Source: an uncultured Anaerolineae bacterium (GTDB lineage Bacteria > Chloroflexota > Anaerolineae > JACIWP01). Taken from it: 64,000 nt of DNA. The DNA lies in the NCBI GenBank assembly GCA_938049385.1, contig CALIBQ010000013.1, positions 23,551 to 87,550 on the forward strand. Reading direction: 5' to 3'. A program made the translations under genes and the position numbers. Each line of letters starts with the position of its first letter. Position 1 is the stretch's first letter. The notes under the pieces are model-generated. The model saw only the letters and a program-made list of their open reading frames with translations, was not told the DNA's origin and searched no databases. Positions 21,858 through 62,206 of the stretch are shown one piece after another.

Positions 21858-22153
21858 TATAGCACAGAGGATAGATAAGGGGAGAAATTATGGGGCCATA
21901 CGCGAAACCCCGCCGTGCCGTGTGCGGAAGAGGTTTGAACCTGCTTACGCAGGTGGGTGCCTCCTGACAGCCAGCACGACTCCTTCACATGGAAGGGAAG
22001 TCGCAGCTTCTGCAGAGTCCGGCTCCCTCTTATTAAGTGTTGGCTCAAACCGCATTACCGCATCACGAACACAGCAGGGCTCTATTTCCTTATATACCAT
22101 AAACTGGGCGGAATGACAAATTGGCCGCAAAGGGTATTAGGGGAGGGGGAAGT

Positions 22154-22197: not shown

Positions 22198-22269
22198 GCC
22201 CCTGTAGCTCAGAGGATAGAGCAGCGGCCTCCGGAGCCGTGCGCGGGCGTTCGAGTCGCCCCAGGGGTA
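22198..22269 (+). tRNA. tRNA-Arg(CCG)
   Basis: full cloverleaf: GCCCCTG/CAGGGGT acceptor, GCTC/GAGC D stem, GCGGC-CTCCGGA-GCCGT anticodon arm, GGGCG-TTCGAGT-CGCCC T arm; CCA not encoded; terminal pair is G-U. Confidence 0.95.
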
Positions 22270-60983: not shown

Positions 60984-61012
60984 TTGACGAAATCAGAAGA
61001 AGTTGTTATAAT
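60984..61012 (+). promoter_or_regulatory. strong promoter (TTGACG-N17-TATAAT) for multiheme cytochrome
   Basis: 5/6 -35, 6/6 -10, 17-nt spacer. Confidence 0.75.
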
Positions 61013-61183
61013 ATAGTTGATATCAATTCTTTACACATTTTTATCCTGCGGCTGGTGGTGCCTCGCTAGCAAGGAGGAAGCCCGTCACACAATGGGGTGA
61101 GGAATCCCGGCGCATGAGGTTCGCCGGTCTACGGCGCAGTGAAACGTTCATCGTAGCAGTCAAAGAGGAGGGAAAAACGGGCT

Positions 61184-62144
61184 ATGAAATCCTCGCGCAT
61201 CTGGATGGTGCTCTTCATCTCCACCGTGCTGTTCATCCTGGCCGCCGGCCTGGCTTTCGCTCAGGACCCTGCCGCCATCAGCGGGGAGAAATGCAAAGGA
61301 TGTCACGGCGACATCCATGCGGAATGGGCCGGCACGGGCCATGCAGTCGCGTTGAAGACCCTCGTGGACAGCGGTCATGCTCAGGACTTCTGTTTGGCAT
61401 GCCATTCTACCGACTACATCCTTGCCCCCCAAGGCTCCAAGCCAACCGTGCAGACGGCGCAGTACTCCCTGACCTGTCTGGCCTGCCATCCGGGTGATCA
61501 CACTGCCGGCGGGTCGGCGAAGATCGAGAACATTTTCGACACCTGCGCCAAGTGCCACAACGGTACCTCGGGCGGCACCCGGCCCATCCTGCCTGGCTCC
61601 GAAGCGCATCACCCCATGAAGGAAATGTTCATGGGTGAGGGCGCTCCGGAGGTCTCCGGCGTCCCGTCCCCGCACCTGCCGGTCAAGGACTGCACCATGC
61701 ACCAACTGCCACGTGGAAGGCCATAAGTACGAAGCCACCCAGGCCGCCTGCGACAAATGCCACGGCGGCCAGAAAACCATCGCGGCCATCCACAATGAGG
61801 TGCTCCCCAAGATGGAGACGCTGAAGACCGTCCTGGACCAGATCAAGGCGGCTCACCCTGATTGGGATCCTCGGGCCCAGACCAAAGGTGATGAGCAGAA
61901 GGCGTACGAGCTGGCTTACACCCTCTACACCTTCGCCCAAAGCGAGGGGAGCGGCGGTGTGCACAACTATGACTACACCTATGCCATCCTGGCTAAGGCG
62001 AAGGATGCGCTGGTAAAGGTCGGGTTGGCCGCTCCCGAGGCCCTGCCCATCACGGGTGCGGAGCTGGCTAATCTCTGGCCGTACCTGGCCGGCCTGGCCG
62101 GCGCCGCTCTGATGGGCGTGGGTATCCGCAAGCGCATGAAGTGA
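61184..62144 (+). CDS. hexaheme c-type cytochrome with signal peptide and C-terminal LPITG/TM/RKRMK sorting signal; apparent frameshift near 61698
   Basis: six CxxCH motifs (CKGCH, CLACH, CLACH, CAKCH, CTNCH, CDKCH) across two frames; ends EALPITGAELANLWPYLAGLAGAALMGVGIRKRMK. Confidence 0.85.
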
Positions 62145-62184: not shown

Positions 62185-62206
62185 AGGGGCGGGAATTCCC
62201 GCCCCT
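62185..62206. terminator. bidirectional terminator
   Basis: perfect palindrome AGGGGCGGGAATTCCCGCCCCT between convergent genes. Confidence 0.8.

Follow-up and report, generated by a model that had tools for sequence, protein, structure and literature searches.

The window analyzed here, a stretch of 64,000 nucleotides from an uncultured bacterium of the Anaerolineae (Chloroflexota), carries a gene whose product is, judged from sequence and a predicted structure, an exported c-type cytochrome of the OcwA/NrfA superfamily. It corresponds to a half-size OcwA with the heme 5–9 module, the heme-5 His–His pocket, and the C-terminal helix bundle. The chain ends with an LPITG motif, a hydrophobic segment, and a basic end, and we infer that the protein is a terminal reductase of the OcwA type that is covalently anchored by a sortase and reduces an extracellular acceptor (probability about 0.6). 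We give even odds to the broader proposition that a sortase links an OcwA-type terminal reductase covalently to peptidoglycan in some Chloroflexota, providing wall-bound electron outlets in hosts thought to lack an outer membrane, and that in one genus only the second active-site half of this reductase is left.

The sequence-only reading had described a single hexaheme gene at 61184-62144. As assembled, this region of the window copy comprises two frames rather than a single ORF, and the gene is intact in two congeners. The frame starting with the ATG at 61184 encodes the signal peptide that had been proposed (judged by eye, with cleavage placed after AFA) and four CxxCH motifs (CKGCH, CLACH, CLACH, and CAKCH), and then runs through DCTMHQLPRGRP to a stop at 61726. 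The second frame encodes CTNCH, CDKCH, and the LPITG tail and ends at 62144. All six heme motifs of the earlier description are present, but they are split over the two frames, with four before and two after a 7-bp duplication; the LPITG/hydrophobic/RKRMK C terminus is also there, in the second frame. The gene and its flanking signals comprise the following features.

60984..61012, plus strand: sigma-70 type promoter of the cytochrome gene, TTGACG-17-TATAAT, with 11/12 consensus matches and an extended -10 TG; both hexamers are identical in both congeners
61035..61183, plus strand: strongly conserved 5′ leader of about 150 nt (three-congener comparison; no Rfam family)
61184..61690, plus strand: in-frame 5′ portion of the gene, with signal peptide and hemes 1–4, codons 1–169
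61292..61306, plus strand: heme motif 1, CKGCH
61391..61405, plus strand: heme motif 2, CLACH
61475..61489, plus strand: heme motif 3, CLACH
61544..61558, plus strand: heme motif 4, CAKCH
61607..61612, plus strand: His142–His143, aligned to OcwA HH380/381, the pair that covers the open side of heme 5 in OcwA (OcwA numbering from PMC6703420)
61691..61704, plus strand: tandem 7-bp duplication, TGCACCA at 61691-61697 and 61698-61704, where the frame shifts; a single unit in both congeners
61698..62144, plus strand: 3′ part of the cytochrome gene, other frame, with hemes 5–6, three-helix bundle, sorting tail, and stop
61698..61712, plus strand: heme motif 5, CTNCH
61749..61763, plus strand: heme motif 6, CDKCH
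62043..62057, plus strand: LPITG motif, within the flexible linker that follows the helix bundle (sequence; model of the congener protein)
62058..62126, plus strand: hydrophobic segment AELANLWPYLAGLAGAALMGVGI, predicted helix
62127..62141, plus strand: basic end RKRMK
62185..62206, plus strand: intrinsic-terminator-like hairpin closing the single-gene unit; present on the other strand too

The window genome is a 3.37-Mb draft (98% complete), and either the gene is broken in this strain or the assembly is wrong. In two genomes of the same genus, one of which is the metagenome-assembled genome “Anaerolineae bacterium isolate RSWS7,” the whole 317-residue protein is encoded in one frame, with six CxxCH motifs and an identical LPITG/TM/RKR tail. 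The C terminus of the congener proteins, APEALPITGAEL(V)NLWPYLAGLAG..GVGIRKRMK, is shared with the window copy. It is close to certain that the intact copies encode exported proteins of the OcwA family with six hemes. For the window copy, one could argue that it is a pseudogene (or an assembly error), that the strain makes no such protein, and that the “hexaheme protein” amounts to two fragments, a reading that we consider possible though somewhat doubtful. The tandem duplication does break the frame, but neither fragment contains a stop and both show purifying selection, with a dN/dS of 0.07-0.13 on either side of the break at a dS of about 0.5 (window copy versus the two congeners). The differences are mostly at silent sites on both sides of the shift, and the promoter, leader, and terminator are intact. 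The low dN/dS in both halves implies either that the gene stopped functioning only very recently or that the shift is an assembly error; moreover, the matter concerns one strain and not the gene family.

The cytochrome gene, with its own promoter and terminator and with a divergent split glutamate synthase gene and a GMP synthase gene as its neighbors (identified by eye), is thus a gene without an operon partner. Its leader, the counterparts of which lie at L047 853-1004 and L048 4850-5000 in the congeners, is possibly a regulatory RNA. The leader of a congener copy folds better than shuffles (z -2.8, based on three close sequences only, without compensatory changes), and an Rfam search for a known riboswitch in the conserved leader gave no match. 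The divergent split glutamate synthase gene is preceded by a sigma-70 promoter with a perfect 12/12 match (window 60785-60758, minus strand). Elsewhere in the window, a 6S RNA (21903-22083, minus strand) adjoins a tRNA gene (22198-22269, plus strand), at Rfam gathering level.

A sequence search of the PDB gave OcwA (6I5B) as the best match (E 4.5e-33, residues 37-286), followed by OmhA (6QVM). A fold search with an AF2 model of the congener protein, in which the heme domain is of low confidence (mean pLDDT 64.7), returned 6I5B (E 6e-7, probability 1.00) and next 6QVM, with no other confident match. OcwA has nine hemes, of which hemes 5–9 superimpose on NrfA, and hemes 2 and 5 are open sites under the His–His motifs HH281/282 and HH380/381 (PMC6703420). 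Chain numbers in our alignment are offset by 29 from the numbering in that paper, and this offset brings both OcwA HH pairs into register. According to the sequence alignment, the protein encoded by the window-type gene keeps five hemes that equal OcwA hemes 5–9, and its HH142/143, which aligns with HH380/381, is invariant across three alignments. The extra N-terminal heme, CKGCH, sits where OcwA has SHH281/282 and also resembles OcwA heme 1 (19.9 bits). OcwA is characterized by nine hemes, two of which (2 and 5) have open sites, whereas the window-type protein has six CxxCH motifs and keeps the heme-5 HH motif alone; it is therefore a half-size OcwA relative with the heme-5 site, not OcwA proper. 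What the sequence-only reading had called an electron conduit in generic terms is better described, from the sequence and fold matches to 6I5B, as half of an OcwA-type terminal reductase.

OcwA (TherJR_2595), the nonaheme cell-surface terminal reductase of the Gram-positive Thermincola potens, which reduces metals and electrodes, thus shares with the window-type protein the heme 5–9 module, the heme-5 HH pocket, and the C-terminal bundle, and its host likewise lacks a classical outer membrane. In contrast, the region of hemes 2–4 and the β-domain of OcwA are missing from the window-type protein, which has six hemes instead of nine, and the LPITG–TM–basic tail is found on the latter only: the OcwA chain stops about 20 residues past the matched region, which leaves no room for a tail of this kind. 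The half-size version shows which part of OcwA can stand alone.

We consider it probable that the window-type cytochrome is an electron outlet rather than a reductase of a soluble oxyanion. OcwA is related to NrfA, c554, and MccA and reduces oxyanions too (PMC6703420, PMC7911101), and the NrfA/MccA-like architecture, in which the heme-5 HH pocket is kept, would allow an extracytoplasmic reductase of nitrite, sulfite, or a similar soluble oxyanion instead of an outlet to minerals. We regard this alternative as unlikely, since sequence and fold both place the protein nearest to two surface reductases, OcwA and OmhA, rather than to NrfA or MccA, and since anchoring to the wall fits an acceptor that is insoluble or far away.

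The C-terminal tail is the feature on which the proposed anchoring depends. In the congener model, the bundle (residues 197-276, with the third helix at 260-276) is followed by a linker with LPITG at 285-289 and a last helix at 289-308. The protein thus has the layout of a sortase substrate, comprising a signal peptide, a C-terminal LPXTG, a hydrophobic helix, and a basic end. It shares the LPXTG, the hydrophobic segment, the positive end, and the genome-encoded sortases with LPXTG sortase substrates, from which it is set apart by its cargo, a multiheme c-type cytochrome. Sortase-anchored heme-binding surface proteins such as those of the Isd system bind b-type heme for iron uptake.

When searched with the NCBIfam model TIGR01167 (LPXTG_anchor), the tail is the top match in each of the three genus genomes (19.0-19.5 bits versus a cut-off of 15.9), and it scores 14.9 bits within the whole congener protein. 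This model exceeds its own cut-off in 9 of 14 control genomes, and its matches at E<=1 do not include the LPTTG tail of Dive96_bin3.112 described below; it was therefore not used as proof of a sorting signal. The Pfam model PF00746 yielded no LPXTG tail over the cut-off in the window genome. Using a simple composition estimate, the chance of an LPxTG at the right C-terminal distance is about 3e-4 per protein, with about 0.02 cases expected among all TM-tailed proteins per genome.

Homologues were drawn from 396 genomes of the class, 400 genomes of the phylum, and a genome-contig scan. Conservation of the motif in orthologues, which had been suggested as a check, holds for all three genus genomes and, as LPTTG, for a distant orthologue, but the motif is absent from most relatives. 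None of the three refuting outcomes listed with the sequence-only reading has turned up. The distant orthologue is a full nonaheme OcwA in the Chloroflexota MAG Dive96_bin3.112 (E 1.8e-75 to 6I5B, about 40% identical over the shared part), which ends with AELPTTGG..TM..RRKR at the same aligned place after the bundle, the hydrophobic part being hardly alike. Its locus (L050 1-4218) holds a cytochrome b fragment, a gene for a 606-residue multiheme cytochrome, and then the nonaheme gene. Other homologues end right after the bundle, extend into further cytochrome sequence, or carry a TM tail that lacks LPXTG (for example, L072, L073, L076, L089, and L092). The two LPXTG lineages fall in one poorly resolved part of the tree, and a common origin was neither established nor rejected (AU p 0.085).

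These data bear on the main rival to sortase anchoring, namely that the tail does no more than tether the C terminus of the cytochrome to the cytoplasmic membrane, on its outer side, with LPITG being a coincidence or a relic and no sortase acting on it. We find this rather unlikely, albeit worth serious attention. The many relatives with a TM tail that lacks LPXTG indicate that membrane tethering is common in the family, and the TIGR01167 score is marginal, with a noisy model. On the other hand, a motif with so low a chance of occurrence recurs in two lineages that are far apart, at an identical place in the alignment and with a differing hydrophobic stretch, and it is unchanged across the genus, which speaks for function. 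Among the OcwA-like relatives, L072, L073, and L057 (minus strand) have stalks rich in Pro and Thr, and VHTG, RPTG, or VPTG stands before their TM tails; these tails are possibly degenerate or different sorting signals.

Sortase anchoring further entails a suitable enzyme, and the search of the genome called for by the sequence-only reading turned up two sortases, as well as two in each congener. The sortases of the window genome have the His (SAHND, SGHHN), the Cys of the TLxTC motif (TLITC, TLVTC), and the Arg (THR) in the family positions, and both pass the general sortase model. Of the class-specific models, those for classes D and E, the types suggested for the search, score best, but both proteins stay below every class-specific cut-off (best class D, 97 bits versus the NCBIfam cut-off of 140; best class E, 71 bits versus 160). 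Known substrates of class D/E sortases include LPxTA and LAxTG motifs. These low class scores count against the sortase reading, as does the lack of a sortase gene adjoining the cytochrome gene. While encoded sortases count against a plain membrane anchor, they occur in 22 of the 23 homologue-bearing genomes; their presence alone therefore proves little, and we have downgraded this argument.

A search for other LPXTG proteins had also been suggested. None of 94 other LPxTG-coding sites examined in the window genome has the layout of a sorting signal (the 94 being among the matches listed, which take in about two-thirds of the LPxTG sites that are CTN-coded and none that are TTR-coded), and the cytochrome tail is the sole LPXTG tail among the sites checked, as would suit a membrane anchor. 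In addition, no LPXTG protein was seen in the stretches of the sortase flanks that were examined, and LPxTG codons are not in excess genome-wide (144 sites versus 190 for a reversed control pattern). This scarcity is the main weakness of the sortase reading for the window genome. Dive96_bin3.112 differs in this respect, as several LPxTG tails occur there: it encodes three sortases and at least two further such tails (LPVTG and LPATG) besides that of the OcwA orthologue, which argues against a mere membrane anchor.

Two other types of tail were observed in the genus. A secreted surface protein with a Pro/Thr stalk, found in the window genome (L029, C25:118695) and in a congener (L128), ends with F(V/A)DTG-TM-RxxRQ, or F(V/A)DTGIGPIILIIAGALLLITGLLG.RY.RQ in full, and, going by its sequence, may be a substrate of a class-E-like sortase. 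PEP-CTERM-like tails (PEPATLALLGSGLLALGGYVGLRRR; IPEAGTWMLMAGGLAGLASYLRLARRRRR) occur in L031, L129, and L133 and would represent a second protein-sorting system.

The tail is of interest for the way in which Gram-positive bacteria and other monoderms retain the outermost of their electron-transfer proteins. OmhA, the undecaheme surface/S-layer cytochrome of Carboxydothermus ferrireducens and the second-best match of the window-type protein by sequence and fold, is surface located, but it has eleven hemes and is reported to be weakly bound and easily sheared from the surface (PMC7829351), not anchored. CwcA (Tfer_0075) resembles the window-type protein in having six hemes and a role at the wall, being proposed to lie within the Thermincola peptidoglycan; unlike the OcwA-like window-type protein, it is modeled as OmcS-like stacks without covalent anchoring (PMC7911101). 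No anchor for OcwA is described in the open-access papers found, and a surfaceome study of Desulfotomaculum reducens sought LPxTG proteins and found none. Ardenticatena, a presumed monoderm member of the Chloroflexi, has surface multiheme cytochromes, and its paper mentions no anchor. A search of 5.39 million open-access papers, a body that excludes most subscription journals, yielded no description of a multiheme cytochrome anchored by a sortase. An OcwA homologue with a sorting tail offers a specific and testable answer for at least two lineages of Chloroflexota, suggesting that an electron outlet can be fastened to the wall in bacteria that lack an outer membrane, by means of OcwA versions with a classical sorting tail. 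The combination of sortase and LPxTG also provides a genetic handle for displaying OcwA-type reductases on cell walls.

The sortase-anchored reductase would work as follows. After Sec export and heme attachment, the C-terminal helix would hold the cytochrome transiently, until one of the two genome-encoded sortases cleaves LPIT|G and transfers the protein to the wall. Electrons would leave the quinone pool via a membrane-bound NrfCD–multiheme module and travel along the chain of hemes until, at or close to the open heme, they reach an extracellular acceptor; both the route and the nature of the acceptor are conjectural. A candidate for the module is present on another contig of the window genome (C4, L042 6408-10717), where an NrfC-like 4Fe-4S protein, NrfD, a 13-heme membrane-anchored cytochrome, and an 11-heme lipoprotein are encoded in a row. 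Based on these gene identities, it is plausible that the row constitutes a quinol-to-surface module with a part like that played by ImdcA and PdcA in Thermincola (PMC7911101), and this module may feed the window-type cytochrome.

The OcwA module also occurs in duplicate in the Chloroflexota. Tandem two-copy OcwA modules with 18 hemes and about 1030 residues were found in L009/L055, L067, L069, and L010, and, wherever the locus extends far enough, a further gene with many CxxCH motifs lies downstream.
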